From contig NZ_JAPEPJ010000004.1 in NCBI RefSeq assembly GCF_026340255.1, positions 1 to 64,000 on the forward strand: a DNA stretch of 64,000 bases, read 5' to 3'. A program made the position numbers and the translations under genes. Shown in pieces: positions 19,320 through 57,739 of this stretch; within the stretch, counting starts at the first letter, position 1; each line of letters starts with the position of its first letter. The DNA comes from Streptomyces sp. NBC_01408 (GTDB lineage Bacteria > Actinomycetota > Actinomycetes > Streptomycetales > Streptomycetaceae). The notes under the pieces were generated by a model. That model saw nothing but the letters and a program-made list of their open reading frames with translations. It searched no databases and was not told the DNA's origin.

Positions 19320-19331
19320 GGGGGATCCGAC

Positions 19332-37607: not shown

Positions 37608-37610
37608 GCG

Positions 37611-40469: not shown

Positions 40470-40805
40470 ATGCCCGTGGAAAACAACGCTTCGTCGGCTG
40501 CGCTGTCCGGGCGGGCCGAGCGGATTGCCTCGCGCAGCCGCGGTGACAACTGGAAGAAGGCGCCGCGCCGCATCGAGAAATCCGAGTGCATCACCTGCGA
40601 CAGCTGCCTGCGCGGCTGCCCGGCGGAGTTCGGTGCCATCTTCGACCGCGGCCTCGACGTCGTGATCATCCCCGAGCTGTGCTCGGGCTGCCCGGCCTGC
40701 GTCCTGGAGTGCCCCGTCGACTGCATCTACGTCGACGAGGACTGGACCCCCACCGACGACTCGATGTGGAACCACATCGAGCTCACCGCCGGAGGTACGT
40801 CATGA
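40470..40805 (+). CDS. Two-cluster ferredoxin (KinI-like position)
   Basis: 111 residues from the ATG at 40470 (AAAGGGG before it). Two 4Fe-4S motifs: CITCDSCLRGCP near 45-56 and CSGCPACVLECP near 75-86. The stop overlaps the next ATG, so it and the 680-residue protein are translated together. A ferredoxin heads the conserved hydrazine gene set of kinamycin clusters (recalled). It would donate electrons, perhaps for nitrite reduction or N-N bond formation. Confidence 0.85.
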   Translation: MPVENNASSAALSGRAERIASRSRGDNWKKAPRRIEKSECITCDSCLRGCPAEFGAIFDRGLDVVIIPELCSGCPACVLECPVDCIYVDEDWTPTDDSMWNHIELTAGGTS

Positions 40806-42844
40806 CCGGGCCCGCCGAGCGCGAGTCCCGCCGCGCCGTCAACGCCAGGAAGCGGATCAGCCGCCGGCCCAGCCGGCTCGGCACTCCCGCCGGAACCACC
40901 CTCAAGCCGGACCGCGAGGGCGAGCCCGACGCCGGCTTCCCCAGCCTGCTCAAGCGGGCCTGGCAGCGCGCCACCGAAGCCGGTGACCCGCGCTCCTCGG
41001 TCGAGGTGCTGCTCACCCTCGACGGCTACGTCCCCGCCGACGTGCAGCTGCGGGCGCTGAGCACCGCGGACGAGGCGGCGCTCAAGGTGCTGTCCGGGCT
41101 GACCTGGCGTGCCGAGGGCGGTGTCGACCTCGTCGCGGAAGCCGCGGCCGCGGCCGACGCGTCCGCGGACACCGGTGCGCAGCCCGCGTTCCTCGGCGAG
41201 ATCGCCCTCGCCACCAGCGGCCGCATCCTGCTGCGCGTCCCCTCCCAGGCTCCCCTCGACAAGCAGAACCTGGTCGGCGGCGTGCTGCGCGTGCCGTGGA
41301 CCGCGCGCCAGCTGGCCGCGTACGCCGAGGAGACCCGGCTCGCCGCCGACCTGCTCGCCGAGTCGGTCGCCGACTGCCGGCAGTGGCTCGCGGACCAGGG
41401 CGCCGAGGCCCGTGACGAACTGCTCGAGCAGGCGAAGGAAGCGGCCCTGCGCAACGCGCCCTTCGTGCTCTACCAGGAGCAGAAGCAGTACACGAACTTC
41501 CGCGACCAGAACACCCTCACCGGCAAGACCCTGTGGCCGGGCCACCCGGACTGCGCGCTCAGCAGCCTCCAGGGCCTGCCCCTGGACCTGTGGTCGGACA
41601 ACGACGTCCAGATGGTCGTCTGCCTCACCCTGCTCATCCGCTCGGCCGGCTTCGGCCGGATCGAGGAGGCGAACAACACCCAGCTGACCGTCGACCACGT
41701 CGCGTACATGCTGGAGCGGGTCCGCCGGGGCTACAACGGCGTCGCGGGCGCCGAACCGGTCGCCCCCGCGGCCTCGCACCGCGTCAAGGACCTCGGCGAC
41801 CTCGCCGACGCCCTGCGCGCCCGCCGCCAGGAGCGGGCCACCAACAGGCTGCTCTACCGCGAGATCCACGGCGCCCTCATGCACAAGATCGAGCGCGTGG
41901 CCGGAACTCCCGCCGAGGGCGTCCGCGCCCGCGAGGAGGCGGTCACCGACCGGCTGCGCGAGCGCCTTCCGCTGACCGGCGCCACCCTGGAGGAGCTCGG
42001 CCTGCACCTCGCCGCCGCCCCCGAGTGGCTCGCCGTCCCGCACGGCGGCTACGGCACCGGCCTGGAGTCCCTCGTGTACGAGACGGTGGCCGCGACCTCC
42101 GAGGCCTTCCGCGCCGACTTCGCGATGAGCCGGGGCATGCGTTCGCTGCCCGCGCTGATCAGGGCGCTGCGCGAGGAGAGCTGGGCGGAGATCTGCGACT
42201 GGGACATCACCAACTTCTTCTGCTGCGTGGTGCCGCTGCCCGAGGCGCGCCGCCACTTCGCGGACTCGGCGGCCGCGCTCGCCGACACCGCGTGGGCCAT
42301 GTCCTCGCGGATGCAGTACAACTCCTGGCACTTCGTCCCGGGCAACGTGCCGCGCGTGCCCGAGGTGCTCGCCCGCGACCACTTCGTGCCGCCGACCATC
42401 CCGGACATCGCCTTCTACTCCGACCAGCACCACCACGGGCACGTCAACAACAAGGTGCGGTTCTCCATCCGTTCCCCGCAGTCCGTCACCGTGGACGGGC
42501 GCCGCTTCAACGGGTTCATGGACCTGCGGCTGCTGCGCTGCGACGGCACGCCCTTCAACGAGCAGGACATGCTCGCCGCCCACCGCGTGTCGGCCTTCAT
42601 CGCCCGGGCCACGAGCCTGGTCGCGGCGATGGCCGCCGCCGGTGAGCACGTCGAGGTCACGTCCTTCGACGCCGCCTGGCACTGGTCGGCCATCACGGGA
42701 GAGGGGGCGGCGGCGCCCGAGCCGGCGGCAGCCCGTCCCGCGGCTCCCGAGCCGGTGGCGGCCGAGCCGGTGGCGGCCGAGCCGGTGGCGCCCGTGCCCC
42801 TGAGGGCCGAAGCCGCCCGGGGGCAGGCCCGCCGCGCGTCCTAG
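40802..42844 (+). CDS. 680-residue unknown protein, candidate N-N bond-forming enzyme
   Basis: ATGA overlap with the ferredoxin. I do not recognise a family with certainty. Visible features: basic N-terminus (RKRISRRPSRLG), mixed helical region, KQYTNFRDQNTLTG near 230, a conserved-looking CDWDITNFFCC (residues 465-475), a His cluster QHHHGH (His543-545, His547) that could bind metal, and an Ala/Pro/Glu tail of repeated EPVAA. No clear membrane helices. Position and ferredoxin partner match the unassigned gene of the kinamycin hydrazine set, so it may use reduced ferredoxin to join two nitrogen species. That is inference. Confidence 0.7.
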   Translation: MTGPAERESRRAVNARKRISRRPSRLGTPAGTTLKPDREGEPDAGFPSLLKRAWQRATEAGDPRSSVEVLLTLDGYVPADVQLRALSTADEAALKVLSGLTWRAEGGVDLVAEAAAAADASADTGAQPAFLGEIALATSGRILLRVPSQAPLDKQNLVGGVLRVPWTARQLAAYAEETRLAADLLAESVADCRQWLADQGAEARDELLEQAKEAALRNAPFVLYQEQKQYTNFRDQNTLTGKTLWPGHPDCALSSLQGLPLDLWSDNDVQMVVCLTLLIRSAGFGRIEEANNTQLTVDHVAYMLERVRRGYNGVAGAEPVAPAASHRVKDLGDLADALRARRQERATNRLLYREIHGALMHKIERVAGTPAEGVRAREEAVTDRLRERLPLTGATLEELGLHLAAAPEWLAVPHGGYGTGLESLVYETVAATSEAFRADFAMSRGMRSLPALIRALREESWAEICDWDITNFFCCVVPLPEARRHFADSAAALADTAWAMSSRMQYNSWHFVPGNVPRVPEVLARDHFVPPTIPDIAFYSDQHHHGHVNNKVRFSIRSPQSVTVDGRRFNGFMDLRLLRCDGTPFNEQDMLAAHRVSAFIARATSLVAAMAAAGEHVEVTSFDAAWHWSAITGEGAAAPEPAAARPAAPEPVAAEPVAAEPVAPVPLRAEAARGQARRAS

Positions 42845-42916
42845 GGAGTGTCGGTCACAGCAGCGTCGCACCCGCCCGCCCCTCGCCCCGCCGGGGGTGC
42901 TCTTGAAGGAGAGCCG

Positions 42917-44341
42917 ATGACCGCCCGCGGCATCAGCCACACCAAGGAACTCCTCAGCCGGGGAGAGATCTCCGCCGTCGAACACGTCCAGGCCGTCCTG
43001 ACCGCCATCCGCGAGCGGGACACCCTGGGCGCGTTCGTCACGGCCGCGGGCGACGAGGCCCTGCGGGACGCGGAGCGGGCCGACGCCCGTATCCGCGAAC
43101 GCGGCCGGGAGGCCTGGTGGGACATGCCGCTGCTGGGCGTGACCGTCTCCGTCAAGGACCTGCTGCAAACCCGGGACCTGCCCACCACGCGCGGTTCGCT
43201 GCTGCCCAACGACCGCCCGCGGGCGGACGCGCCGGCCGTGGCCCGGCTGCGCGCGGCCGGGGCCGTGGTCGTCGGCAAGACCACGACCTCCGAGTACGGC
43301 TGGAGCGCCTCCACCGTCAGCCGGGTCGCCCCGCCCACCCGCAACCCCTACGATCCGCGGCTGACCGCGGGCGGCTCCAGCGGCGGAGCCGCCGCGGCGG
43401 TCGCGGCGGGGCTGTGCGAGGGCTCGCTGGGCACCGACGGCAGCGGCTCGATCCGGATCCCGGCCGCCTTCTGCGGCGTGGTCGGCTACAAGCCCTCGTA
43501 CGGCCGCGTGCCCTACTCCGCCAACGGCGCCGAACGCCTCGCCCACCAGGGCCCCATCGCCCGCAGCGTCGCCGACGTCACCCTGCTCGGGCAGATCGTC
43601 TCCGGCCCGCACCCGGGCGACCCCGACTCCGGCCTCGGCTCGCTCGACACGCCGCGCGACAACCGCCGGCTGCGGATCGGCTGGATCGAGTACGAGGGGA
43701 CCACGGACGGGATCCGCCGGGCCACCGCCCAGGCCCGCTCCGTGCTCGCCGCGCAGGGGCACCGCGTCGAGGACATCGAGGTCCGCTGCAACGACCTGTA
43801 CCCCGCCCTGGTCGACCTGCTCGCCGCGTCCGAGGCCGCCGGCACCTCCGCCGAGGACGAACAGTGGTGCGACCCGGGCCGGCTGGAGGTCGTACGGTAC
43901 GGGCGCACCCTGAGCGGGGCCGCCGTGATGCGGGCCGAGGGGGTGCGCCAGGAGCTGCGCCGCACGCTGCGCTCGGTCATGGACCGCTACGACCTGCTCG
44001 CCATGGCCACCGTGCCCGTCGAACCCTTCGCGGCGGGGGCCATCGGACCCGCCTGGGCGGCCGACCCGCGCGACCTGCTGTGGCTGTCCTGGGCGCCCGC
44101 CTCGTACCCCTTCAACATGACGGGCCAGCCCGCCGTGTCCCTCCCGGCCGGGCTGACCGCCTCCGGGCTCCCGGCGGGGGTGCAGCTCGTGGGCCCGGTC
44201 GGCGCGGACGACCTGGTGCTCACCGTGGCGGGCCGCCTGGAGGCGGACCTGGCGCCGCTGCCGCAGCCGCCCGCCGCGGCGCCCGAGCCCGTCGCCGTAT
44301 CCGCAGCCGTACCCGCGGCACTTGCCGAAAGGACGCTCTGA
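42917..44341 (+). CDS. Amidase-signature hydrolase (KinK-like position)
   Basis: 474 residues from the ATG at 42917 (SD GAAGGAGAG); earlier in-frame sequence is intergenic. Ser-cisSer-Lys triad visible: Lys80 in VSVKDLL, GGSSGG (Ser154/Ser155), Ser178 in GSGSIRIPA. In the glutamylhydrazine route an amidase of this type is conserved and could remove an acyl group from the hydrazide. The tail after about 440 is Pro/Ala-rich. Confidence 0.87.
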   Translation: MTARGISHTKELLSRGEISAVEHVQAVLTAIRERDTLGAFVTAAGDEALRDAERADARIRERGREAWWDMPLLGVTVSVKDLLQTRDLPTTRGSLLPNDRPRADAPAVARLRAAGAVVVGKTTTSEYGWSASTVSRVAPPTRNPYDPRLTAGGSSGGAAAAVAAGLCEGSLGTDGSGSIRIPAAFCGVVGYKPSYGRVPYSANGAERLAHQGPIARSVADVTLLGQIVSGPHPGDPDSGLGSLDTPRDNRRLRIGWIEYEGTTDGIRRATAQARSVLAAQGHRVEDIEVRCNDLYPALVDLLAASEAAGTSAEDEQWCDPGRLEVVRYGRTLSGAAVMRAEGVRQELRRTLRSVMDRYDLLAMATVPVEPFAAGAIGPAWAADPRDLLWLSWAPASYPFNMTGQPAVSLPAGLTASGLPAGVQLVGPVGADDLVLTVAGRLEADLAPLPQPPAAAPEPVAVSAAVPAALAERTL

Positions 44342-44344
44342 GCC

Positions 44345-45871
44345 ATGTTTGCCCGGTCATGGTCGACCCCCTCCGCGGAGGGCAGTGTCGGGTGTCCCTC
44401 GTTCGTCGCCGACCACGCGCTGTGGGACGGCGCGCAGCTCGCCGCCGCCGAGCGGATCGAGGCGGGCCTGGACGGGGTGGACTTCGTGCGCCTGGTCTTC
44501 GCCGACCCGCACGGCCTCGCCCGTTCCAAGACGCTGACCGCCCGGGCCTTTCGCGGCGTGCTGCGCAACGGCATGAACTTCAGCCCCGGCCCCTTCCTCA
44601 AGGACACCGGGTGCGCCACCGCCGTCGACTACCGCGGCGAGCACGGCATCGGCGTCGACGAGATCTCGGGCCTGGGCAACTTCGTCCTGGTGCCCGACCC
44701 GCTGACCTTCCAGTCGCTGCCCGGCGAGGGGCCGCGCACCGCCTGGGTGATCGGCGACGAGTACCTGCGCGACGGCACCCCGCACCCGCTGTCCTCGCGG
44801 GGCGTGCTGCACCGCACCCTCGCCCGCTACGCCGGCCGCGGCCTGTCGCCCGTCCTCGGACTGGAGGTCGAGTGGTACCTCACCCGCCGCCTCGACGAGG
44901 ACCCCGGCAACGCGGGCAACGGCTTCGGGCTCCAGGGCGAGGCCCCGCGGGTCGCGGCGATGAACGCGGGCTACCAGTTCAACCTGGACGCCGCCTACGA
45001 CTCCGTGGCCCCGCTCACCGACCCGCTGGCGCTGGAACTGCTGCGGCTCGGGCTGCCGCTGCGGTCGATGGAGCACGAGATGGGGCCCGGCCAGGTCGAG
45101 ACCACCTTCGACCCGATGTCCGCCCTGGACACCGCCGACGCGATGCTGCTGTTCCGCACCTTCACCAAGGGGTACTGCGCCCGCCGCGGCCACCACGCCT
45201 CCTTCATGTCCCAGCCGCGGATCGAGGGGGCCGACCCGAGCGGCTGGCACCTGAACCAGTCCCTGGTGGACACCGCCACGGGCCGCAACGTGTTCAGCGC
45301 CGAGGGACTGTCCGCCGGCATGTCGCCCAACAGCAAGGCCTACGCCGACGGCCTGCTGTCCTGGCTGCGCGACCTGTTCCTGCTGTCGGTGCCCACCGTC
45401 AACGGCTACCAGCGCCTCAGCTCCGCGCACGCCCTGTCCCCCACCCGCGTCGGGCTGAGCCTGGAGGACCGTACGGCGATGCTCCGCGTGGTCGGCAGCG
45501 GCGCGGGCGCGCACATCGAGAACCGCATCGGCGAGCCCTGCGCCAACCCGTACCTCAACATCGCGGCCCAGCTGTTCGCCGGACTCGACGGACTCGACGG
45601 ACTCACCGCGGGCGCCACGGGCACCGGGGGGCCGGGCTCCGAGGAACCCCCGAACCCCTCCGGCGAGTTCGTGCCCCAGTCCCTGCGCGAGGCCCTGGAG
45701 GCCTTCCGCTCCGGCCGGGCCGCCCGGCTGCTCGGCGAACCGCTCGCCGCCTGCCTGGCCAAGCTGAAGGAGAGCGAGCTGCGCCGGTACGAGGCGTGGG
45801 CCCTGCAGGCCGCGCCCGTTCCGGGGCGGGTCACGCAGTGGGAGCAGCGCGAGTACTTCGCGGCGTTCTGA
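44345..45871 (+). CDS. Glutamine-synthetase-like ligase (KinL/FzmN-like)
   Basis: 508 residues, 3 bp after the amidase. Glutamine synthetase fold: FADPHGLARSKTL (beta-grasp), PVLGLEVEWYL (metal Glu), MEHEMGPGQVETTF (ATP/metal), GWHLNQSL, and RIGEPCANPYL near the C-terminus. In kinamycin and fosfazinomycin pathways this class ligates a hydrazine to the gamma-carboxyl of glutamate using ATP. The position in the hydrazine set supports that over primary nitrogen metabolism. Confidence 0.87.
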   Translation: MFARSWSTPSAEGSVGCPSFVADHALWDGAQLAAAERIEAGLDGVDFVRLVFADPHGLARSKTLTARAFRGVLRNGMNFSPGPFLKDTGCATAVDYRGEHGIGVDEISGLGNFVLVPDPLTFQSLPGEGPRTAWVIGDEYLRDGTPHPLSSRGVLHRTLARYAGRGLSPVLGLEVEWYLTRRLDEDPGNAGNGFGLQGEAPRVAAMNAGYQFNLDAAYDSVAPLTDPLALELLRLGLPLRSMEHEMGPGQVETTFDPMSALDTADAMLLFRTFTKGYCARRGHHASFMSQPRIEGADPSGWHLNQSLVDTATGRNVFSAEGLSAGMSPNSKAYADGLLSWLRDLFLLSVPTVNGYQRLSSAHALSPTRVGLSLEDRTAMLRVVGSGAGAHIENRIGEPCANPYLNIAAQLFAGLDGLDGLTAGATGTGGPGSEEPPNPSGEFVPQSLREALEAFRSGRAARLLGEPLAACLAKLKESELRRYEAWALQAAPVPGRVTQWEQREYFAAF

Positions 45872-45918
45872 GCCCGGCCCGACCGACCCTCACCACCCCA
45901 CCGGACGAAGGACCCTTC

Positions 45919-47205
45919 GTGATTCCTCGCTTCATGCTGCCGCAGATGGCGGACCTCTTCTCGGACGAGTCCCGCTACGCGACCTACGTCCGTGTCGAGA
46001 TCCTCGCGTCCGAGGCGCAGGTGCGGCTCGGACGCGTACCGGCCGAGGCGGTCGAGGACATGCGCCGGGCCCCGGTGCCGACGCCCGCCCGGGTCGAGGA
46101 GCTGGAGAAGGAGCGCGAGCACGAGGTGCTGTCCTTCCTCGCGGCGTACTGCGAGGGCATGCCGGCTTCCTCGGCGCGCTGGGTGCACCTCGGCATGACC
46201 AGCTACGACCTGGTCGACACGGCGCTGGGCCACACCCTGGCCCGCGCCACCGACCTGCTCGCGGACGCCGGGAAGCGGCTGCGGCGCGTCCTGGTCGACA
46301 AGGCCTTCGAGCACTGGGACACGGTGATGGTGGGCCGCACCCACGGGGTGCACGCGGAGCCCACCACCTTCGGCCACAAGCTCGCCACCTTCGCCTTCGC
46401 CGTCGACCGCTCGCTCACCCGGCTCGCCGCGGCCCGCGAGGCCGTCGCCGTGGGCACCGTCTCCGGCTCGGTCGGCACGTACGCGCTGATCGACCCGTAC
46501 GTCGAGCAATACGTGTGCGAGGCGCTGGGCCTGGGTGTCGAACCGGCCCCCAGCCAGGTCGTCGCCCGCGACCGGCACGCGCAGCTGCTCCAGGCCGTGG
46601 CCGCCCTCGGCGCCTGCGTGGAGCAGATCGCCCTGGAGCTGCGGCTGCTCCAGCGCACCGAGGTCCGGGAGGTCGAGGAGGGGCGCTCCAGCGCCTACCA
46701 GGGTTCCAGCGCCATGCCGCACAAGCGCAACCCGACGGTCAGCGAGCGGCTGAACGGCCTGGCGCGGCTGCTGCGCGGTTACGCGAACACGGCCCTGGAG
46801 AACGTGCCGCTGTGGCACGAGCGGGACATCGCCCACCAGGCCGTCGAGAAGGTGATCCTGCCCGACAGCCTGTCCGTCGGCCACTACCAGGCGACGGTGG
46901 CGGCGGACCTGGTGGCCTCGCTCACGGTCCACCCGGAGCGGATGCGCGCGCACATCGACCAGACCGACGGCCTCGTCTACAGCTCCTCGGTGCTGGCCGA
47001 ACTGCTCAGCGACGGCATGGAGCGCGAGGCGGCGTACCGCTCGGTGCAGGCCGCCGCGAACCACACGATCGCCACCGGTGAGCACTTCGGGGACTCCCTG
47101 GCCAGGAACGGCATCGACCTGGGGGTCCTGCGGCCGGAGCGGTTCCTCGTCAACCACCACGTCGTCCGCGAACGGCTGGAGGGGCTCCGTAAGCTCGCGG
47201 ACTGA
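45919..47205 (+). CDS. Adenylosuccinate-lyase-like enzyme (KinM/FzmQ-like)
   Basis: 428 residues from the GTG at 45919 (SD GAAGGA); ATG at 45934 is an alternative. PurB-type lyase: MTSYDLVDTALGHTL, GRTHGVHAEPTTFGHK with the catalytic His, and the signature QGSSAMPHKRNPTVSERLNG with Ser263/Ser264. A lyase of this family is shared by kinamycin and fosfazinomycin clusters, where it acts on hydrazine carrier intermediates. A housekeeping purB would not normally sit here. Confidence 0.85.
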   Translation: MIPRFMLPQMADLFSDESRYATYVRVEILASEAQVRLGRVPAEAVEDMRRAPVPTPARVEELEKEREHEVLSFLAAYCEGMPASSARWVHLGMTSYDLVDTALGHTLARATDLLADAGKRLRRVLVDKAFEHWDTVMVGRTHGVHAEPTTFGHKLATFAFAVDRSLTRLAAAREAVAVGTVSGSVGTYALIDPYVEQYVCEALGLGVEPAPSQVVARDRHAQLLQAVAALGACVEQIALELRLLQRTEVREVEEGRSSAYQGSSAMPHKRNPTVSERLNGLARLLRGYANTALENVPLWHERDIAHQAVEKVILPDSLSVGHYQATVAADLVASLTVHPERMRAHIDQTDGLVYSSSVLAELLSDGMEREAAYRSVQAAANHTIATGEHFGDSLARNGIDLGVLRPERFLVNHHVVRERLEGLRKLAD

Positions 47206-47322
47206 TCACCTGCCCCCGGGCGGCGCGAAGCCCCGGCCGCCCTCCGTCCAGCGTCCACCGATCCACCACGCATCCTCGCCATCACGCCATCACGCCATCC
47301 ACGCCACGACCGGAGCCTGACC

Positions 47323-47940
47323 ATGACCGCGAACTGGGCCGAGAACGCCTCCGCCATCCTCGAGAACGACCACGTCCTGCTGACCCCGGTCAGCGAGGCC
47401 GACCGCGAAGGCGTCCGCGCCGTGGCCATGGACCCCGACATCTGGCGCTACTTCACCGTCGTCGTCGGCTCCGACGGCGACTTCGAGTCCTTCTTCGACG
47501 GCAACCTCCGCGAGCAGGAAGCCGGCCGCCGCGCCGTCTACGTGATCACCGACAAGGCGACCGGCCGGACCGCGGGCAGCATGAGCCTGCTCAGCATGGC
47601 CGAGGCCGACCGCCGCCTGGAGATCGGCGCGTCCTGGCTCGGCAAGGACTTCCGCGGCAAGGGCATCAACCACTGGGCCAAGTCCCTGCTGCTCCAGCAC
47701 GCCTTCGAGGCGCTCGGGGCCGAGCGCGTCGAGTTCAAGACGGACGTCCTCAACCTCCAGGCACGCCGCGGCCTGGCCAACATCGGCGCCACCGAGGAGG
47801 GCACCCTGCGCAGCTTCAACTACATGCCGGGCGGCCGCCGCCGCGACGCCGTCTTCTACAGCGTGCTGCGCGCCGAATGGCCCAAGGTGAAGGAGAACCT
47901 CGCGGCCGGCCCGAAGGCGAAGCAGGCCGTCTCGGGATGA
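47323..47940 (+). CDS. GNAT N-acetyltransferase (KinN/FzmR-like)
   Basis: 205 residues. RimJ/RimL-like GNAT: LTPVSEADREGVRAVAMDPD at the start, acetyl-CoA loop in LGKDFRGKGINHWAKSLLLQ near 106-125, RVEFKTDVLNLQARRGLANIG. The shared hydrazine pathway runs through acetylhydrazine or an acetylated glutamylhydrazide, which this enzyme would make. The TGA overlaps the next ATG. Confidence 0.83.
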   Translation: MTANWAENASAILENDHVLLTPVSEADREGVRAVAMDPDIWRYFTVVVGSDGDFESFFDGNLREQEAGRRAVYVITDKATGRTAGSMSLLSMAEADRRLEIGASWLGKDFRGKGINHWAKSLLLQHAFEALGAERVEFKTDVLNLQARRGLANIGATEEGTLRSFNYMPGGRRRDAVFYSVLRAEWPKVKENLAAGPKAKQAVSG

Positions 47941-48995
47941 GCATCGCCTTCGTCCCGGCTTCGGGCACCCCCCGCGAGCTCGGCCTCGCCCACGGCCGGG
48001 CCCTGGCCGCCCCGCTGCGCGGCTTCCTCGACGACGGCCTGGCCCGGCTGAACCACCTCGTCCGCGAGCCCCTGACGCTCCAGGAGCTGCTGCCGTCGAT
48101 CGCCGCGTACCGCACGGTGATCGAGGCGGCCCTGCCGGACCTCGCCGAGGAGGTGGCGGGCCTCGCCGAGGGCGCCGGGATCAGCGAGGACGAGGCCTGG
48201 CTGCTCCAGCTCCGCCGCGAGGTCATCGGCTACAACAAGGTGCCCACCGCCGGGGACTGCACCACGTACGCCCGCACGGCCCGCGCCGGCACCGGCCCCG
48301 CGGCCGTCCCGGTGCTGGCGCAGACGGTGGACCTGAACGCGAACCTGGACACCCACATCAGCGTCCTGCGCATCGCCCGCGCCGGCTCGCCGCGCCGCTC
48401 CCTGGTGCTGAGCTTCGCCGGTCTCCTCGGCTACCTGGGCCTCAACAGCGACGGCCTGGCCATCGGCCTGAACCTGGTCACCGACGGGCAGTGGCGCCCG
48501 GGCGTGTCCCCGTACCTGGCCATCCGCCACCTGCTGGACACGGCCGGCTCCGTCGACCAGGCCCTGAAGATCCTCGCCGGGCTGCCGCTGGCCAGCTCCC
48601 GCTCGCTGATGCTGTGCGACCGCGAGCGGGCGGTGTACGCGGAGATCTGCGGAAACGACATCCGGGTGACCGAGCCCGCCTCCGGGGAGGCGGTCCACAC
48701 GAACCACTACCTGCACGAGGAGTTCGTCCCCTTCGACCGGCAGACCGCCGCCGACCGCGTCTCCTCCGACCTGCGGCTGGATGCCGCCGCCCGCGGCCTG
48801 GCCGGCCTCGCACCGGACGCGGGCGCGGAGGACCACTTCGCCGTCCTGTCCCGGCCGCCGGTCTGCATACCCGACCACGGCGACATCCGCGTCGAGCACA
48901 CGGTCGCGGCCGCGGTGCTCTTCCCCGCGCAGGGCCGGCTCCACCTGCGCCCGGGCGACCCCTCCCGATCGGCCACCCGGGTCTTCACCGTATGA
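47937..48995 (+). CDS. C45-family N-acyl hydrolase/acyltransferase
   Basis: 352 residues, ATGA overlap with the GNAT. Isopenicillin-N-acyltransferase/choloylglycine-type Ntn fold: GDCTTYA places Cys108 as nucleophile exposed by autocleavage, then VLAQTVDLNANLD, LVLSFAGLLGYLGLNSDGLAIGLNL, and THTNHYLHEEF. Coupling to the GNAT suggests it removes or transfers the acetyl or glutamyl group of the hydrazide. I do not recall it in the core kinamycin set, so it may be a distinctive addition. Confidence 0.8.
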   Translation: MSIAFVPASGTPRELGLAHGRALAAPLRGFLDDGLARLNHLVREPLTLQELLPSIAAYRTVIEAALPDLAEEVAGLAEGAGISEDEAWLLQLRREVIGYNKVPTAGDCTTYARTARAGTGPAAVPVLAQTVDLNANLDTHISVLRIARAGSPRRSLVLSFAGLLGYLGLNSDGLAIGLNLVTDGQWRPGVSPYLAIRHLLDTAGSVDQALKILAGLPLASSRSLMLCDRERAVYAEICGNDIRVTEPASGEAVHTNHYLHEEFVPFDRQTAADRVSSDLRLDAAARGLAGLAPDAGAEDHFAVLSRPPVCIPDHGDIRVEHTVAAAVLFPAQGRLHLRPGDPSRSATRVFTV

Positions 48996-49028
48996 CCCTG
49001 GACGGGCACCGGAGTCCGCGAGGAGCTT

Positions 49029-49087
49029 AGGGGGTGTCCGGTGGGTCAGGGCCGGGCTTCCCGACCCTGACCCACCGGACACCCCCT
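49029..49087. terminator. Long hairpin terminator after the hydrazine operon
   Basis: Perfect 23-bp arms 49029-49051 and 49065-49087 (begin AGGGGGTGTCCGGTG), 13-nt loop. Same sequence family as the hairpin at 4994. Confidence 0.85.
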
Positions 49088-49143
49088 GGTCCGCGGGCTC
49101 TGCGCCCGGGCTGTATCAGGACTCGACCGGGGGTCTGTAGGTT

Positions 49144-49222
49144 CGTCGGCGGGACGCGGTCCGGACCTGCCCTGGCAGGTCCGCACCTGACCGCGTGCCG
49201 GCGTGTCCGCGTCCCGCCGACG
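49144..49222. promoter_or_regulatory. Nested cruciform upstream of the response regulator
   Basis: Outer arms CGTCGGCGGGACGCGG (49144-49159 with 49207-49222) are perfect; the inner hairpin GGACCTGCC-CT-GGCAGGTCC (49163-49182) is perfect. It ends 41 bp before the ATG at 49264. Could be an operator for autoregulation or a leader attenuator. Confidence 0.6.
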
Positions 49223-49263
49223 CACCGATTCCACGCAGGCCGCGCAGGACCCTCGGGGGAGGC

Positions 49264-50037
49264 ATGACTCAGATTCCGTCACCGGCACTGCTGGAGCCCC
49301 ACGCACCCGTCCCGCATCCCATCCGCCTGGTCAAGGACGGTGTGGCCGGCTCCGTGCCGCGCACCGCCGCCTCGTTGCCGGGGCGGCGCATCCTGGTGGT
49401 CGACGGGGACGGCGAGGTCGCCGACTCCCTGGTGACCCAGCTGCGCAGGCACGGCCACGAGTCCGTGGGCGTGCGCCGCGGCAGCGCCGCCCTCCAGGCG
49501 TACGAGGAGATGGACCTGGTCCTGCTCGACCTCGAACTGCCCGACCTGGACGGCCTGGAGGTCTGCCGGGCCATCCGGTCCGTCAGCCGGGTCCCCGTCA
49601 TCATCGTCACGGCCCGCCAGTCCGAGCTGGACTGCGTACTGGGCCTCCAGGCGGGCGCCGACGACTACGTGACCAAGCCGTACGGGCTGCGCGAGCTGAT
49701 GGCCCGTATCGAGGCCGTCATGCGGCGCGCGCAGTGGCAGCCGGCCGCCGTCCAGGAGATCCGCCGCGGTCCGCTGCACATCGACGTGAACTCCCGCGAG
49801 GTCACCGTGGAGGGCGTCGAGATCGCCCTGACCCGCAAGGAGTTCGACCTGCTGTGCCTGCTGGCCTCGCACCCGGACACGGTCGTCCCCCGCAAGCAGC
49901 TGCTCCAGCAGGTGTGGGGGGACTCCTGGTCGCGGCGTACGGTCGACACCCATGTCAGCAGCCTGCGCGGCAAGCTGGGCGACAGCGGGTGGATCGTGAC
50001 GGTACGGGGCGTGGGGTTCAAGCTCGGCAACGCGTGA
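49264..50037 (+). CDS. OmpR-family orphan response regulator (JadR1-like)
   Basis: 257 residues from the ATG at 49264. Receiver at about 41-155: Asp89 in LVLLDLELPD is the phosphorylation site and Lys138 in YVTKPYG is present, but the acidic pocket reads VVDGDGE (Asp47-Gly48), lacking the usual second acid. Winged helix at about 165-255 (LTRKEFDLLCLLASHPDTVV, RTVDTHVSSLRGKLG). No kinase gene nearby, so probably an atypical ligand-responsive regulator as JadR1 in jadomycin clusters. Confidence 0.85.
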   Translation: MTQIPSPALLEPHAPVPHPIRLVKDGVAGSVPRTAASLPGRRILVVDGDGEVADSLVTQLRRHGHESVGVRRGSAALQAYEEMDLVLLDLELPDLDGLEVCRAIRSVSRVPVIIVTARQSELDCVLGLQAGADDYVTKPYGLRELMARIEAVMRRAQWQPAAVQEIRRGPLHIDVNSREVTVEGVEIALTRKEFDLLCLLASHPDTVVPRKQLLQQVWGDSWSRRTVDTHVSSLRGKLGDSGWIVTVRGVGFKLGNA

Positions 50038-50136
50038 ACGCCTCCGGGCGGTCCCCCGGGGCCGGCCGGGGACGTCGGCGCGGGCCCCGGCACGCGCGTC
50101 GTCGCGGGCCCCGGAACGGGCCGGGTCCGGCGGGCG

Positions 50137-51213
50137 TCACCAGGTGCGGCCGGCCACCACGCGGGCGCCGCGCTCCGGGGCCGGCCGCCCCTCCTCGCTG
50201 ACCCGCAGTTCGTCGGCGAACAGCTGCCACAGCTCCGAGTAGCCGCTCATCAGCTCCGCCATCTGCCCGGTGCAGTGCGGCGGCAGGTTGGCGATGATGC
50301 GCTGGCGGTCGCGGGCCACCAGCGAGCAGGCGTCCAGCATCCGCAGGATGTTGCGGCCCACCTCGTTCAGGCGCAGCGAGGGGTCCCGCCGCAGCGCGTC
50401 GAAGATCACGAACAGTTCGCCGGGCGACCTGGCCTCCGCGCCCCGCTCCTCGCCGTCCTGCTCCCGGTCCCGCTCGCGCCGGCCGCGGTCGGCCACCAGG
50501 ACGCCCCGCTGGCGGGGCGGCACCGGGTCCTCGCCGCGCTGCAGCCGGTCGCGTACGTCGGCGACGGTCGCCGGGGAGATCCCGGCCTGGCGGGCGATGG
50601 TCCGCAGCGAGGCCTTCGGGTCGGAGGTGAGCAGCTGCCCGGCGAGTTCGCGGCCCTGGGCGGTGCTCAGCGGCCGGGCCCGCCCGTCGAGGCCCACCCG
50701 GCGCTCGCACTGCGGCAGGTCGTCCGCGCGCAGCCGTATCTCGGAGACCTTCTTGGCGGACAGGCCGGCGACGACGGCGATGGCCCGGTCCGACCAGTGG
50801 GGGCGCGCGGTGAGGATGCGCTGCGCGGCGCAGACCCGGTCGGCCTGGGACAGCGGGCGTCCCTGGGCCACGTTCAGCGCCACGGCCAGCAGGGCGGCGT
50901 CCTCCTGGGAGCCGTCGAAGAACCGGGCCGCGATGTGCTCGCGCCCCTTGAGTCCGGCGGCCCGCAGCCGGTGCAGCCCGTCGATGACGGTCATGGTCGG
51001 GCGGTGGACGAGGATCGGCGGGAGCTCGGTCTCCAGTTCGGCGAGGGTGAGCGCCCAGTCGCCGTCCACGCCGGCGGTGCGCGGGGTGAAGGAGACCGTC
51101 ACGTCGGCGACCCGTATCCGCTCCACGGGTGTCCCGCGCAGGACCGTGTCCCGCAGGGCGAGCAGGGAGTCCGAGCTGCTGTCGTAGGGCACGCGCACGA
51201 CCTGGTTGGCCAT
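50137..51213 (-). CDS. StrR/NovG-like ParB-domain regulator
   Basis: 358 residues from the ATG at 51213 (AGGAG upstream). ParB-like nuclease fold at about 25-115 (ELPPILVHRPTMTVIDGLHR, then FFDGSQEDAALLAVALNVAQG), then two HTH segments: RPHWSDRAIAVVAGLSAKKV and LRTIARQAGISPATVADVRD. StrR, NovG and KasT activate aminoglycoside or aminocoumarin clusters; seeing one in an aromatic PKS cluster is less usual. Its promoter holds the CGTCAGC heptamers. Confidence 0.85.
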   Translation of the reverse strand: MANQVVRVPYDSSSDSLLALRDTVLRGTPVERIRVADVTVSFTPRTAGVDGDWALTLAELETELPPILVHRPTMTVIDGLHRLRAAGLKGREHIAARFFDGSQEDAALLAVALNVAQGRPLSQADRVCAAQRILTARPHWSDRAIAVVAGLSAKKVSEIRLRADDLPQCERRVGLDGRARPLSTAQGRELAGQLLTSDPKASLRTIARQAGISPATVADVRDRLQRGEDPVPPRQRGVLVADRGRRERDREQDGEERGAEARSPGELFVIFDALRRDPSLRLNEVGRNILRMLDACSLVARDRQRIIANLPPHCTGQMAELMSGYSELWQLFADELRVSEEGRPAPERGARVVAGRTW

Positions 51214-51298
51214 CACCGGGACTCCTCGTTGACGCAGGCGGTCGGGCAGAACGGGGCTGGCGGGCCAAGGCGGCCCTCCACGGAGCCTTTCAACGCGG

Positions 51299-52991
<1,693 letters not shown>

Positions 52992-53049
52992 CCTGCGAGT
53001 TCGAGTGCTTCTCAAGCGAATCTCATCCGGTGCCTCGGACGCTGATGGG

Positions 53050-53100
53050 GCGTGATCACGAATCACGCTCTTACTTAGCGAACCCGCTTAGCGAACCCGC
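53050..53100 (+). promoter_or_regulatory. Dyad and tandem repeat before the neocarzinostatin-like gene
   Basis: GCGTGAT-CACGA-ATCACGC at 53050-53068, then two direct copies of CTTAGCGAACCCG at 53074 and 53087. Ends 20 bp before the ATG at 53120, so a likely operator. Confidence 0.5.
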
Positions 53101-53119
53101 ACACGATGTGGAGTTGACC

Positions 53120-53530
53120 ATGCAGATCACCCGTACGCGTCTGTCCCAGTTCGCCGTCCTCGGCGCCACCGCCGCCGCCGCCATCGCCCTCGCCGCGGGT
53201 CCCGCCTCCGCGGCCGCCACGGTCTCCGTCTCGCCCTCCACGGGCCTGTCCGACGGCCAGTCGGTCACGGTCACGGGCGCCGGCTACGCCGCGGGCAGCG
53301 AGGTCGGCGTCGCCCAGTGTGCCGACGGCATCGTCTGCGCCACCGCGGTGGTCGCGAACGCCGACGCCAACGGCGGCTTCCAGCAGGACTACCAGGTGCA
53401 CAAGACCTTCCAGGCGACGGACTGGGCCACCGGCGCAGCCATCTCCGTGGACTGTGCCGTGACGCAGTGCCGCGTCGTGGCCTGGCAGGAGACGACCGGT
53501 CAGGTCGGCTCGAACATCTCCTTCAACTAG
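53120..53530 (+). CDS. Secreted neocarzinostatin-family apoprotein
   Basis: 136 residues. Signal peptide with AVLGATAAAAIALAAGPASA, cleavage near 31-32. The mature ~104 residues start ATVSVSPSTGLSDGQSVTV and fold as the seven-strand immunoglobulin-like barrel of neocarzinostatin and macromomycin. Cys67/Cys73 and Cys112/Cys117 match the two short disulfide loops. In chromoprotein antibiotics such proteins bind and shield a reactive chromophore. Here it might sequester the product outside the cell, but this family also occurs without a chromophore. Confidence 0.82.
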   Translation: MQITRTRLSQFAVLGATAAAAIALAAGPASAAATVSVSPSTGLSDGQSVTVTGAGYAAGSEVGVAQCADGIVCATAVVANADANGGFQQDYQVHKTFQATDWATGAAISVDCAVTQCRVVAWQETTGQVGSNISFN

Positions 53531-53587
53531 GTCCCGGACATGGCCTGAGAGACGTGACCGCCGGCTGACGCGGGGGCACGGCCGACC

Positions 53588-53856
53588 GCGCGGTGACCCC
53601 GCGCGGCCCCTGGCCCGGCCCCGGCCCCTCCCGTACGGCGGGTTCCGCGCGGCGATCCCGCGCGGGGGACCCCGTACGGCGGCTGACACGGCGCGGTGAC
53701 CCCGCGCAGCCACGACACCTCTCGAACGGCGGCCGGCCGCGCGGCAACCCCGCGCGGGCACGGCAGGCACCTCCCGTACGGCGACCGCAGGCGCGCGGTG
53801 ACCCCGCGCGCTCCCGGCACCCGCCGTACGAGGCTGCCTGAGCGGTGACCCCGCGC
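53588..53856 (+). repeat. Six irregular tandem repeats with palindromic core
   Basis: Core GCGCGGTGACCCCGCGC or near copies at 53588, 53647, 53691, 53739, 53793 and 53840, spaced 44-59 bp, often with CCGTACGGCG between. Each core is a near-palindrome. A further hairpin pairs AGCAGGCACCTCC (about 53865) with GGAGGTGCC (53905 on). The gap 53531-54030 holds no convincing gene. Confidence 0.75.
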
Positions 53857-54030
53857 AGGCACACAGCAGGCACCTCCGCACGGTGGCCGGTCCGCCGCCG
53901 CGGGAGGTGCCTGTGCTGTTGTCCGCCGCGGATTGCCAACCCTTGCCGCACACCCGCCGGCCAGCCCCTCTAGCGCCGTCCGAGCCCGGGTTGAGCGTCG
54001 CGGCCGACCTTTGCGGAGGAAGGAGGCCCT

Positions 54031-54231
54031 GTGGACGGTACCCACGGAGGCGACCGCGAAGGTCTTGCCGGACCCCCTGCGGGGCCGCCGGTGACGGCGG
54101 CCGCTCTGTTCTACCCGGAACACCGGGAATCCACCATGACCTTCGGGGACGACGCCGGCACCCCGGCGCAGCCGACGCGGCGGCGCCGCGGTCGCGGCCG
54201 TCCCCGTCTGCTGAGCGGAGTGTCCTTGTGA
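54031..54231 (+). CDS. Possible 66-residue leader ORF
   Basis: GTG at 54031 with an excellent AAGGAGG (54020-54026). Begins MDGTHGGDREGLAG and ends with an Arg-rich run (RRRRGRGRPRLLSGVSL). The stop overlaps the GTG of the next gene, as in translational coupling. No family recognised; may be a real small protein or just a coupling leader. Confidence 0.45.
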   Translation: MDGTHGGDREGLAGPPAGPPVTAAALFYPEHRESTMTFGDDAGTPAQPTRRRRGRGRPRLLSGVSL

Positions 54232-56243
54232 GCAGCGGACGTATGGAAGTCTGCCTCGTCGGCGCCGGACCGCGCGGGCTGTCCGTACTGGAACGGCTCT
54301 GTGCGCAGGAGCGCAAGTCCCCCCGCTGGGAGCACGTCACCGTGCACGTCGTCGATCCCGATCCCCCGGGCTCGGGGCGGGTGTGGCGGCCCTCGCAGCC
54401 CCGGCACCTGCTGATGAACACCGTCGCCTCGCAGGTCACGGTGTACACCGACGACAGCGTCACCGTCGAGGGACCGCTGGAGGAGGGGCCGAGCCTCTAC
54501 CAGTGGGCCAAGGCGCTGGGCCCGAGCGCGCTCACCCCCGGCTCGGGCGTGGCCTACGACGACGAGACCCTCGCGGAGGCCCGCGACCTGGGCCCGGACA
54601 CCTACCCCACCCGCGCCCTGTACGGCCAGTACCTGACCTGGGTGTTCCAGCAGGTCACCGCGAACGCGGCCGCGCACATGACGGTCCACGTGCACCCCGT
54701 GCGCGCCGTCGCGCTGGAGGACGGCGACGCCGGCCCGCGCGGAGCGGACCCGCAGAGCGTGCTCCTGGAGGACGGCACCCGGCTGACCGGGCTGTCCGCG
54801 GTGGTGCTGGCGCAGGGGCACGTCCAGGTCCGGCCCACCGAGACCGAGCGGGAGCTGGGCGAGTTCGCCGCCCGCAGCGGCCTGACCTACATCGGCCCGG
54901 CCAACCCGGCGGACGTGGACCTGTCCTCGGTCGCGCCGGGCGAAAACGTGCTGCTGCGCGGGCTCGGCCTGAACTTCTTCGACTACATGGCGCTGTTCAC
55001 GCACGCCCGGGGCGGCGTCTTCGAGCGCGTCGGCGGCCGGCTCGTCTACCGCCCCTCGGGCCGTGAGCCGCGCCTGTACGCGGGCTCCCGGCGCGGCGTG
55101 CCCTACCAGGCGCGCGGCGACAACGAGAAGGGCGCCCACGGCCGGTACTTCCCCCGGCTGCTGACCGCCGAGTACATCGCGGCGCTGCGCGCCCGCACCG
55201 CGCACCGCGGGGCGATCCGCTTCGGCACCGACCTGTGGCCGCTGATCGCCAAGGAGGTCGAGTGCGTCTACTACGAGGCGCTGCTGGCCCCCCGTACGGC
55301 GCCCGCCGCCGTCGCCGGGTTCGCCGCCCGCTACCTGGCGGCCGAGCCGGGCGCGGAGGAGCTGCGGCTGCTGGACGAGGCCGGTGTCGGCGCGGAGGAA
55401 CGCTGGGACTGGGAGCGCGTCGCCCGCCCGTACGGGGCGCGCGCCTTCCGCGACCTCGCCGAGTTCCGCACCTGGCTGCGGGACCACCTCGACCGGGACG
55501 TGCGCCACGCCCGTGAGGGCAACGTCAGCGGGCCGGTCAAGGCCGCCCTGGACCTGCTGCGGGACCTGCGCAACGAGCTGCGGCTCGCCGTCGACCACGG
55601 CGGGCTCGACGCCGCCTCGCACCGCGACGAGCTGGACCGCTGGTACACGCCGCTCAACGCCTACCTGTCGATCGGCCCGCCCGCGTCGCGGATCGAGGAG
55701 ATGGCCGCGCTCATCGACGCGGGCGTCCTGGAGGTGACCGGCCCGGGGATGCGCGCCGAAGCCGATCCGCGGGACCCGCGGGGGCCCTCGTTCACCGGTA
55801 CCTCGGCCGAGATCCCGGGCGTGCGCGTACGGGCCACCGTACTCATCGAGTGCCGGCTGCCCGAGATCGACCTGCGCCGCACCGCGGACCCGCTGATGGG
55901 CCATCTGCTGCGCACCGGGCAGTGCCGGACGTACCGCATCGGCGGAGCGGGCGGCGAGGAGTACGAGACCGGCGGCCTCGCCGTGTCGCAGCGCCCCTAC
56001 CGCCTGCTGGACGCCCAGGGCGCGGCGCATCCCCGGCGCTTCGCCTACGGGGTGCCCACCGAGTCCGTGCACTGGGTGACCGCGGCGGGCATCCGGCCGG
56101 GCGTCGGATCGGTCACGCTGGAGGACTCCGACGCCATCGCGGCGGCCGTCCTGGACCTGCCCGAACTGCCGCCCGGCGCGGCGCGGCTGGGCGTACGGGC
56201 CGACCACGGGGCGCTGGGCACGGGCGCGGCGGCGACGGCATGA
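54228..56243 (+). CDS. FAD/NAD(P)-binding N-oxygenase, CreE/FzmM-like
   Basis: 671 residues from the GTG at 54228 (GGAG 7 nt upstream); ATG at 54243 is an alternative. N-terminal FAD motif VCLVGAGPRGLSVLERL, then DPDPPGSGRVWRPSQPRHLLMNT, VVLAQGHVQ, and GENVLLRGLGLNFFDYMALF, typical of the FAD/NAD(P)-binding family that includes CreE. CreE oxidises L-aspartate to nitrosuccinate. It is ATGA-coupled to a CreD-like lyase, so the pair should release nitrous acid. Assignment rests on family and pairing. Confidence 0.78.
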   Translation: MSSGRMEVCLVGAGPRGLSVLERLCAQERKSPRWEHVTVHVVDPDPPGSGRVWRPSQPRHLLMNTVASQVTVYTDDSVTVEGPLEEGPSLYQWAKALGPSALTPGSGVAYDDETLAEARDLGPDTYPTRALYGQYLTWVFQQVTANAAAHMTVHVHPVRAVALEDGDAGPRGADPQSVLLEDGTRLTGLSAVVLAQGHVQVRPTETERELGEFAARSGLTYIGPANPADVDLSSVAPGENVLLRGLGLNFFDYMALFTHARGGVFERVGGRLVYRPSGREPRLYAGSRRGVPYQARGDNEKGAHGRYFPRLLTAEYIAALRARTAHRGAIRFGTDLWPLIAKEVECVYYEALLAPRTAPAAVAGFAARYLAAEPGAEELRLLDEAGVGAEERWDWERVARPYGARAFRDLAEFRTWLRDHLDRDVRHAREGNVSGPVKAALDLLRDLRNELRLAVDHGGLDAASHRDELDRWYTPLNAYLSIGPPASRIEEMAALIDAGVLEVTGPGMRAEADPRDPRGPSFTGTSAEIPGVRVRATVLIECRLPEIDLRRTADPLMGHLLRTGQCRTYRIGGAGGEEYETGGLAVSQRPYRLLDAQGAAHPRRFAYGVPTESVHWVTAAGIRPGVGSVTLEDSDAIAAAVLDLPELPPGAARLGVRADHGALGTGAAATA

Positions 56244-57739
56244 CGGACGCCACCCCCGGCGCGGCGGCCCCGGCCGCCGCGCCCGCCTGCCCGCCGGACA
56301 GCGGGCTGCTCTCGCCGGTCCGGGCGGGCACCCCGGCCGAGGCCGCGGTGAGCGACACCGCCTGGCTCCAGGCGATGCTCGACGCGGAGGCGGCCCTGGT
56401 GCGCGCCCAGGCCCGGTGCGGGACCGTTCCCGCAGCGGCGGCCGGGGTGATCACGGCCGCGGCCCGCGCGGAGCACCTGGACGTACGGGAACTGGCGCTG
56501 GCCTCCCGCGAGACGGCGAACCCGGTCGTCGGCCTGGTGAAGGCGCTGACGACGGTGGTGGCCGAGCGCTCGCCCGAGGCCGCCGAGTACGTGCACCGGG
56601 GTTCCACCAGCCAGGACATCTTCGACACCGGCGCGATGCTGGTGGCCGCGCGGACGCTGCGGCTGATCGGCGCGGACCTGCGGGCCACGGCCGGGGCCCT
56701 GGGCGCTCTCGCGGCCGCGCACCGGGACACGGTGATGGCGGGCCGTACGCTCGCGCTGCACGCGGTGCCCACCACCTTCGGGCTCAAGGCGGCGGGCTGG
56801 CGGCAGCTGGTCCTGGAGGCCGCCGAGCGCCTGGAGCGGGTCGCGGACGGGGGGCTCCCCGTCTCCCTGGGCGGCGCGGCCGGGACCCTGGCCGGCTACC
56901 TCCAGTACGCGGGGGACGACGCCGGTCCGGATGCCGTACTCGACGGCCTGGTCAGCGCTTTCGCCGAGGAGACGGGCCTGGCCGCGCCGGTCCTGCCCTG
57001 GCACGCGCTGCGCACGCCCGTCGCCGACCTCGGCGCGGCGCTCGCGCACACCACGGGCGCGCTCGGCAAGATCGCCGCGGACGTGCTGGTGCTGACCCGC
57101 ACCGAGATCGGCGAGGTGGCCGAGCCCGCGGGGGCCGGGCGGGGCGCGTCCTCGGCGATGCCGCACAAGCGCAACCCGGTCCTGGCCACCCTGATCCGCT
57201 CCGCAGCCCTCCAGGTGCCCGCGCTCGCCTCGGTCCTGACGCAGTGCCTGGCCACCGAGGACGAGCGTTCGGCGGGCGTGTGGCACACCGAGTGGCAGCC
57301 GCTGCGCGAGTGCCTGCGGCTGGCCGGCGGGGCCGCGCACACCTGCCTGGAACTGGTCCGGGGGCTCGCCGTTCACCCGGAGCGGATGCGCGCCAACCTG
57401 GCGGCGACCGGCGGGCAGATCGTCTCCGAGCGCGTCTCGGCCGTCCTCGCGCCCCTCCTGGGCAAGGCGCCCGCCAAGGACCTGCTGACGTACGCCTCCC
57501 GGCGGGCGGCCGAGACCTCCCGGCCGCTGGCCGAGGTGCTCGGCGAACTCCCGCAGCTGCGCGGGGTGTTCACGCCCGGGGAGCTGACCGCGCTGCTCGA
57601 CCCGGCCGGATACACCGGCCTGGCCGGACCGCTGGTCGACCGCGCACTGTCCGACCGCGCACCGGCCGACCGGCCGACGGCCGCTGCCGCTGCCGCTGCC
57701 GGGAGCCATTCATCTGTTCACCACCAAGGGGCGACATGA
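56240..57739 (+). CDS. Nitrosuccinate-lyase-like enzyme (CreD/FzmL-like)
   Basis: 499 residues, ATGA overlap on both sides. Aspartase/fumarase superfamily, nearest 3-carboxymuconate-cycloisomerase-type lyases: STSQDIFDTGAMLVAARTL, GRTLALHAVPTTFGLK, and GASSAMPHKRNPVLATLIRS with Ser304/Ser305. CreD splits nitrosuccinate to fumarate and nitrous acid. The first ~25 and last ~20 residues are low complexity. Confidence 0.8.
   Translation: MTDATPGAAAPAAAPACPPDSGLLSPVRAGTPAEAAVSDTAWLQAMLDAEAALVRAQARCGTVPAAAAGVITAAARAEHLDVRELALASRETANPVVGLVKALTTVVAERSPEAAEYVHRGSTSQDIFDTGAMLVAARTLRLIGADLRATAGALGALAAAHRDTVMAGRTLALHAVPTTFGLKAAGWRQLVLEAAERLERVADGGLPVSLGGAAGTLAGYLQYAGDDAGPDAVLDGLVSAFAEETGLAAPVLPWHALRTPVADLGAALAHTTGALGKIAADVLVLTRTEIGEVAEPAGAGRGASSAMPHKRNPVLATLIRSAALQVPALASVLTQCLATEDERSAGVWHTEWQPLRECLRLAGGAAHTCLELVRGLAVHPERMRANLAATGGQIVSERVSAVLAPLLGKAPAKDLLTYASRRAAETSRPLAEVLGELPQLRGVFTPGELTALLDPAGYTGLAGPLVDRALSDRAPADRPTAAAAAAAGSHSSVHHQGAT

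Follow-up and report, generated by a model that had tools for sequence, protein, structure and literature searches.

The heme b enzyme KinJ, working with the ferredoxin KinI, converts aspartate and nitrite into L-hydrazinosuccinate (PMC12154649; this and the other literature statements draw on excerpts of the articles cited). In the kinamycin and fosfazinomycin route, FzmQ/KinN acetylates hydrazinosuccinate, FzmR/KinM cleaves the product, FzmN/KinL ligates the resulting acetylhydrazine to glutamate, and FzmO, a homologue of KinK, removes the acetyl group (PMC6133997; PMC10477347). The azaserine (azs) and triacsin (tri) clusters share a GNAT of the AzsS/Tri31 type and a C45 hydrolase of the AzsT/Tri14 type in a hydrazine pathway that makes hydrazinoacetate from lysine and glycine by means of a ligase and a carrier protein; in azaserine formation, AzsS puts a succinyl group on hydrazinoacetate, and AzsT, the C45 hydrolase, takes it off again (PMC10445470). 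Here we analyse 64,000 nucleotides of Streptomyces sp. NBC_01408 (contig NZ_JAPEPJ010000004.1, positions 1 to 64,000; hereafter the window), with a GC content of 64.6–79.0% per 2-kb step and its closest DNA relatives in Streptomyces, in which a kin-type hydrazine cassette lies in a cluster with an aromatic type II polyketide synthase (PKS). We interpret the locus, with a probability of about 0.68, as a diazobenzofluorene (kinamycin/lomaiviticin-type) cluster that carries an azaserine-type capping pair and represents a step between two states. A hydrazine set with diazobenzofluorene machinery is an already known kind; the exchanged protecting-group pair in a transitional state is a new variant, and no description of such a GNAT/C45 swap was found at title or abstract level in the open-access literature searched.

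The hydrazine cassette and its proposed capping pair

The cassette (plus strand, like all features below unless stated) begins with a KinI-type 2[4Fe-4S] ferredoxin (40470..40805; Pfam Fer4 families, two CxxCxxCxxxC motifs), whose gene likewise lies 5' of kinJ in relatives. It is followed by a 680-residue KinJ-type heme hydrazine synthase (40802..42844), predicted from homology and residues to make L-hydrazinosuccinate from aspartate and nitrite. This protein has no match in Pfam, NCBIfam or PDB, as has been published for KinJ itself; it has 72% identity to P0017, its homologue in S. ambofaciens, and keeps nine of the nine KinJ residues K356, C468, R497, M498, N501, H504, H541, R551 and R570 (PMC12154649), all at a constant offset of +6, with fewer than four matching at the other offsets from −30 to +59. 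The KinK-type amidase comes third (42917..44341; Pfam Amidase, 309 bits) and looks intact, with 146 of 148 columns that are near-invariant among 49 KinK rows kept and K80, S154 and S178 present. The next gene encodes a KinL-type ligase with a glutamine-synthetase fold (44345..45871; Gln-synt_C, 195 bits), predicted to join glutamate and an acylhydrazine; a primary-metabolism glutamine synthetase was considered and rejected, as the protein falls far under the cut-offs of four matched models (best 165 bits against 470). The PurB-like lyase that follows (45919..47205; Lyase_1) scores 378 bits with the purB model TIGR00928 (cut-off 326), and its predicted KinM role, the splitting of acyl-hydrazinosuccinate into acylhydrazine and fumarate, is assigned from its position in the cassette.

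Nitrite would be supplied from further downstream, where the gene of an L-aspartate N-hydroxylase of the CreE/FzmM/Alp2F type (54228..56243) overlaps by 4 bases that of a nitrosuccinate lyase of the CreD/FzmL/Alp2G type (56240..57739). The lyase scores 816 bits with NF052556 (cut-off 650) and 602 bits with the CreD structure 5xny. For the oxygenase, Pfam gives FAD-NAD(P)-binding alone and NCBIfam gives no match; a PDB search from the shorter start, 54342, gave a single match at E ≤ 0.001, 8cp2 (644 bits), labelled an FAD-binding protein in PDB, which we take to be the aspartate N-hydroxylase of Streptomyces sp. V2 described in PMC10404684. Neither is therefore an unrelated oxidoreductase or lyase, and a CreE/CreD nitrite supply is present, CreE being recognised through the PDB match alone. 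The N-terminal motif GAGPRG is encoded upstream of the gene caller's start at 54342, and the start at 54228 is therefore the right one, as the initial annotation had it.

That annotation had described a nitrite-to-hydrazine gene set shared with kinamycin and fosfazinomycin, beside an angucycline-type PKS. Family and residue evidence bears out a set leading from nitrite to glutamylhydrazine in this setting, and Pfam, NCBIfam and PDB matches locate every family it named: ferredoxin, 680-residue protein, amidase, glutamine synthetase fold, PurB-like lyase, GNAT and the CreE- and CreD-like enzymes. Its gene run, otherwise correct, had omitted a C45/AAT hydrolase at 47937..48995, and its reading as the shared gene set is not supported, for the GNAT at 47323 is not of the 134-residue type and lies, with the C45 protein, among AzsS/AzsT homologues.

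The KinN position thus holds, in place of a KinN/FzmQ-type acetyltransferase, a 205-residue AzsS/Tri31-like GNAT (47323..47940), a predicted hydrazine N-succinyltransferase by its grouping with azs-type GNATs, the three nearest of which are 74–78% identical. The C45 gene overlaps it by 4 bases and encodes an AzsT-like, predicted desuccinylase (NCBIfam C45_proenzyme, 209 bits, cut-off 85), with G106-D107-C108-T109 invariant across 11 rows and 61–62% identity to P0202, a C45 protein of S. fragilis. As in azs, the two genes are adjacent, and both products group with azs rows. A different KinJ class, cluster E of PMC12154649, combines Tri31/AzaB homologues with the adenylating enzyme Tri29/AzaC, and glycine is suggested there as the substrate. 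The window, by contrast, still has KinM and KinL, and neither a Tri29/AzaC-type ligase nor a carrier protein adjoins its pair; therefore aspartate, not glycine, is the likely substrate.

Distribution and ancestry of the pair

The window has KinIJKLM, CreE/CreD, AlpH, AlpJ and a type II PKS in common with the kinamycin (kin/alp, compared by description) and lomaiviticin (lom) clusters, but its 134-residue GNAT has been replaced by the AzsS-like GNAT and the C45 hydrolase. It also adds an ebo/ScyE cassette and a neocarzinostatin-fold protein, neither of which is mentioned in the excerpts of the kinamycin literature searched. On a plasmid of Streptomyces sp. AMCC400023 (NZ_CP024990), PKS, AlpH, ebo, KinI–M, CreE/CreD and tailoring genes follow an order similar to that of the window; at DNA level, two window queries match it with 82–83% identity, along 59% and 47% of their lengths. 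This plasmid has the 134-residue GNAT, and no C45 or neocarzinostatin-fold gene was found in bases 1–69000 of its 90671; its ScyE gene lies elsewhere, and it has a second ketosynthase/chain-length factor (KS/CLF) pair that is absent from the window. In Streptomyces NBC_00525 and NBC_01244, plasmid clusters carry GNAT and C45 genes in the kin cassette, with AlpH, AlpJ and PKS like the window, but, unlike the window, they are without KinK.

We compared 63 related loci with KinJ, 58 from genome contigs (L002–L059) and five from plasmids (L001, L060, L061, L062 and L064); L001 is a near-copy of L004, and L036 of L064. The plasmids measure 91–300 kb and belong to five Streptomyces strains, which suggests plasmid spread of related clusters. 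KinL is present in 58 of the 63 loci, and the cassette types were counted among these. KinK occurs with the 134-residue GNAT in 48 and by itself in four, the 134-residue GNAT not being found in the stretches examined; the remaining six have the C45 hydrolase and a 205-residue GNAT, without KinK and without the 134-residue GNAT. The two hydrolases occur together in none of the 58 loci, and no locus has the 205-residue GNAT without the C45 protein or the reverse. The window, with KinK, 205-residue GNAT and C45, is thus unique among 59 cassettes. A seventh C45-type cassette (L089) begins at KinL, so its stretch cannot show KinK. At genome level, C45-type relatives, covered by five genomes and two plasmid records, yielded no amidase with more than 42% identity to KinK, against 57–82% for KinK elsewhere among the related loci, and the 134-residue GNAT was absent from six of these seven.

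C45 was found at 24 places in 23 of 392 Streptomyces-group genomes, with the GNAT adjoining at 22 places. Wider stretches were examined for 20 places; G020 and G027, whose kin cassettes were already in the set as L021 and L028, were omitted, as were G287 and G317, which showed no GNAT. One of the 20 is a kin cassette. The other 19 lie among azs-like genes, always with AMP ligase, cupin/MetRS and FAD-oxidase families and in 13 cases with an 1100-residue nonribosomal peptide synthetase gene, and their gene order equals azsL-M-N-O-P-Q-S-T-U of PMC10445470 (as excerpted). Domains were checked for the whole of L093 (FAD oxidase, cupin/MetRS, condensation-adenylation-carrier, AMP ligase, a carrier-sized protein without Pfam match, GNAT, C45 and phosphopantetheinyl transferase) and for two proteins of L107 (lysine monooxygenase; cupin/MetRS). 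One genome (G196) carries both a C45-type kin cassette (L089) and an azs-like cluster (L099), possibly the recipient and donor types side by side.

Phylogenetic trees show the kin-associated GNATs as one clade (support 100/98; seven rows including the window, with L023 outside the set) and the kin-associated C45 proteins as another (100/100; eight rows). Each joins the azs rows L090, L091 and L093, with support of 94/98 and 99/97, and midpoint rooting puts both within the 19 azs rows. In the KinL tree, the window and seven C45-bearing rows likewise form one clade (100/99), in agreement with a 60-row quick tree, and in the GNAT, C45 and KinL trees alike the window is the first branch of the kin-associated clade. 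The KinL columns diagnostic of the C45 lineage number 21, of which eight fall at residues 52–96. A plain placement of the window KinM in the KinK lineage was considered and dropped; L047 is its nearest neighbour in a quick large tree, but the careful tree is undecided. The window therefore has the look of a hybrid that branched off at the base of the C45 lineage, in which the new hydrolase has been gained and the old one is still kept.

Polyketide genes, predicted pathway and alternatives

As the initial annotation held, an aromatic PKS is present, with KS (16517) and CLF (17785) genes at 16517..18999 and acyl carrier protein (19050), ketoreductase (19332) and aromatase/cyclase (20196) genes at 19050..21137, all recognised by Pfam; the KS is 92–96% identical to those of L001, L060 and L061. 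An AlpJ-type ring-opening oxygenase (15244..15939) matches 5f9p, an anthrone oxidase-like protein that we take to be AlpJ, with 343 bits. On the minus strand lies an AlpH-type Mannich enzyme (30488..31522), the predicted glutamylhydrazine installer, with 509 bits to the AlpH structure 8h3t and 245 to the next match. AlpH puts glutamylhydrazine on the polyketide by a Mannich reaction independent of S-adenosylmethionine, and the contacts named for it (PMC10477347), F157, F170, M174, M177, K266, H267, H270 and D271, are kept together with the CxGxG motif and L252 in an alignment to 8h3t judged by eye, with the motifs present as CGGQG and KHIVHD. The window thereby combines a KinJ that has H541, C468, M498 and the arginine set, an AlpH-like protein with CxGxG and K266/H267/H270/D271, and an AlpJ-family enzyme with a type II PKS. 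As AlpH and AlpJ homologues accompany a type II PKS, the specific prediction is a diazobenzofluorene, which sharpens the earlier expectation of a diazo or other N–N aromatic polyketide.

We envision that aspartate would be oxidised by the 54228 enzyme and cleaved by the 56240 lyase to give nitrite, which KinI and KinJ would join to a second aspartate to form hydrazinosuccinate. The AzsS-like GNAT would then cap hydrazinosuccinate, and by analogy with AzsS the cap is most likely succinyl in place of acetyl; the PurB-like KinM lyase would free the acylhydrazine, and the KinL ligase would attach it to glutamate. The cap may be taken off by the AzsT-like C45 hydrolase or by the retained KinK, after which AlpH would load glutamylhydrazine onto the AlpJ-opened polyketide, with loss of the glutamyl group giving the diazo function. 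The capping pair would have been acquired, apparently once, from an azaserine-type cluster, leaving the window with the old amidase next to the new hydrolase.

Several points weigh against this reading. On the chemical side, the acyl donor is judged from homologues that act on hydrazinoacetate, whereas the substrate here would be hydrazinosuccinate, and the retained, intact KinK is equally explained by ordinary acetyl chemistry. Tri14, a C45 homologue of AzsT (56%), is reported to release polyketide instead, and for azaserine itself a second group is reported to have needed no enzyme but AzsF for desuccinylation and dehydrogenation (PMC10445470). On the comparative side, the 134-residue GNAT is equated with KinN because of where it lies and because it accompanies KinK, not by comparison with KinN or FzmQ sequences, and in G020, a genome of the C45 type, a 49% homologue of it lies on a different contig. 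The C45-bearing relatives form one clade, so that their exclusion of KinK counts as one evolutionary event, not many. The window KinJ falls outside the C45 clade (approximately unbiased test, p 0.0105), the grouping of KinM is undecided (p 0.635), and the window has 11 of the 21 KinL and three of nine KinM columns diagnostic of the C45 lineage.

In an account that we regard as unlikely, ordinary kin chemistry persists: the GNAT would acetylate hydrazinosuccinate, KinK would deacetylate glutamyl-acetylhydrazine, and the C45 protein would do another job, either polyketide or ester release, as for its homologue Tri14, or glutamyl removal after AlpH. The intact KinK is what this account expects, and the excerpt of PMC10477347 names no enzyme for glutamyl removal, the AlpH product shedding its glutamyl group spontaneously in vitro. 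However, the C45-bearing relatives show no KinK orthologue in the seven genomes and plasmid records examined, so that something else must deacylate there; moreover, in all 58 loci with KinL the GNAT and C45 genes are either both there or both missing, and they adjoin at 22/24 places. The combination of KinK and C45, found in 1/59 cassettes only, might also be an assembly chimera, but we give this hardly any credence. In S. xanthophaeus, window-type C45 (96%) and KinJ (97%) lie on a contig of 105,477, the same size for both; in strain cmx-4-9, the neocarzinostatin-fold protein (83%) and C45 (88%) likewise lie on a contig of one size; and KinL, whose gene is flanked by KinK on one side and by the GNAT and C45 end of the cassette on the other, is already of the C45 lineage.

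With regard to the product, the cassette could feed a hydrazide, an azo or azoxy compound, or a stealthin-type aminofluorene. Among KinJ clusters (nodes at 95% identity), 56% are not predicted phosphonate or diazobenzofluorene makers (PMC12154649), stealthin C builds up when Alp2F is missing (PMC12181624), and the window's product is known here as a prediction from genes alone. Against this stand the AlpH and AlpJ homologues, the presence of CreE/CreD and the similar PKS set in relatives, and we consider such a product improbable.

Accessory genes and wider meaning

A neocarzinostatin-fold apoprotein, putatively secreted, is encoded at 53120..53530 (PF00960; NF040680, 114 bits, cut-off 86), after the gene of a DHA2-family major facilitator superfamily exporter (51441..52991; TIGR00711, 242 bits, cut-off 230). 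A PASA motif follows its hydrophobic N-terminus, which by this motif is a putative secretion signal; C67, C73, C112 and C117 are invariant in 17 rows and would form two disulfide pairs; and an AlphaFold model (pLDDT 79.9) has nine strands and matches neocarzinostatin 1nco (TMt 0.82). Sequence and model agree with the family features, an Ig-like strand fold, a putative secretion signal and two presumed cysteine pairs. The NCBIfam name would be enediyne antibiotic chromoprotein, and no enediyne-type modular PKS was found among the Pfam-scanned genes (50 of the 54 called genes of the window). The gene accompanies cassette genes in 13 related clusters and is not universal: ten of the 63 loci plus L118, L120 and L128, which come from 20 stretches around PF00960 sites (L128 extends L047; L122, equal in size to the L062 plasmid record, is not counted). 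At E ≤ 1e-8, PF00960 occurs in 33 of 295 genus-sample genomes; among KinJ genomes the figure is 17 of 50, eight of the 58 loci having been left out of that search. Nineteen of the 37 genus-sample sites were examined, and 16 had no cassette gene nearby; none of six more PF00960 stretches had kin cassette genes. The protein may sequester a diazo product. A response regulator gene (49342..50037; Pfam) has a homologue of at least 60% identity in 30 of 64 loci, and in L134 a neocarzinostatin-fold protein lies beside an 85% homologue of this regulator.

Upstream of kinI, a ScyD/ScyE family protein (31764..32867; NF033206, 229 bits, cut-off 80) precedes an ebo cassette (33099..40312; NCBIfam, Pfam) that comprises INO1-like, SCO3242/EboC UbiA, TIM barrel, EboA, TatD, EboE and phosphodiesterase genes and stops 158 bases ahead of kinI. 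NCBIfam scores are 421 bits for EboE (cut-off 250), 160 for the EboA domain (50) and 389 for the SCO3242 family (260). Six of the 63 loci have three or more of five ebo genes 5' of kinI (match gaps of about 120–300 bases in five, 2.8 kb in one), and the cassette is therefore accessory, not a core part. In Nostoc, ebo genes are required to bring a scytonemin precursor to the periplasm (PMC6282210), and a role in export or late maturation would fit by analogy. A lone EboE (16761–17939) was seen in the C45-type cluster L061, without the other ebo genes sought.

Near the start of the window, an AlpS-like thioesterase (5142..5960; Pfam Thioesterase) carries GHSLG where AlpS has GHSMG (PMC7492732). 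It is followed directly by an aromatase gene (the two together 5142–7246), and a second KS/CLF pair is missing, unlike in L001 and L060; the corresponding AlpR/AlpQ pair is not directly involved in kinamycin formation (PMC7492732). A stand-alone condensation-domain protein (10576–12027) lies beside a phosphopantetheinyl transferase in the type II PKS cluster, and is annotated in L001, L060 and L061 too. An Alp1U/Lom6 epoxide hydrolase role for the alpha/beta hydrolase at 60080 is not supported, its best PDB match being 3r0v (alpha/beta hydrolase fold, 242 bits), against 28 bits for 6kxh, presumably Alp1U. Two ARAGORN tRNA calls, 2495–2576 (without identity) and 30857–30949 (tRNA-Gly), overlap coding genes and are probably false.

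A fuller proposal, which we put forward tentatively and on balance doubt, is that the captured pair protects the hydrazine with a succinyl group, that the window stands half-way in this change with KinL altered along with the cap, and that the neocarzinostatin-fold protein carries a diazo drug, not an enediyne. If our interpretation is true, the heme/nitrite and lysine/glycine routes to N–N bonds, though unrelated, share an exchangeable protecting-group module. Such a module would argue that the protection of hydrazine can be separated from the rest of these pathways, with the window as a natural intermediate. The recurrence of a neocarzinostatin-type carrier in another drug class, in turn, would make the shielding of diazo compounds a directly testable question.

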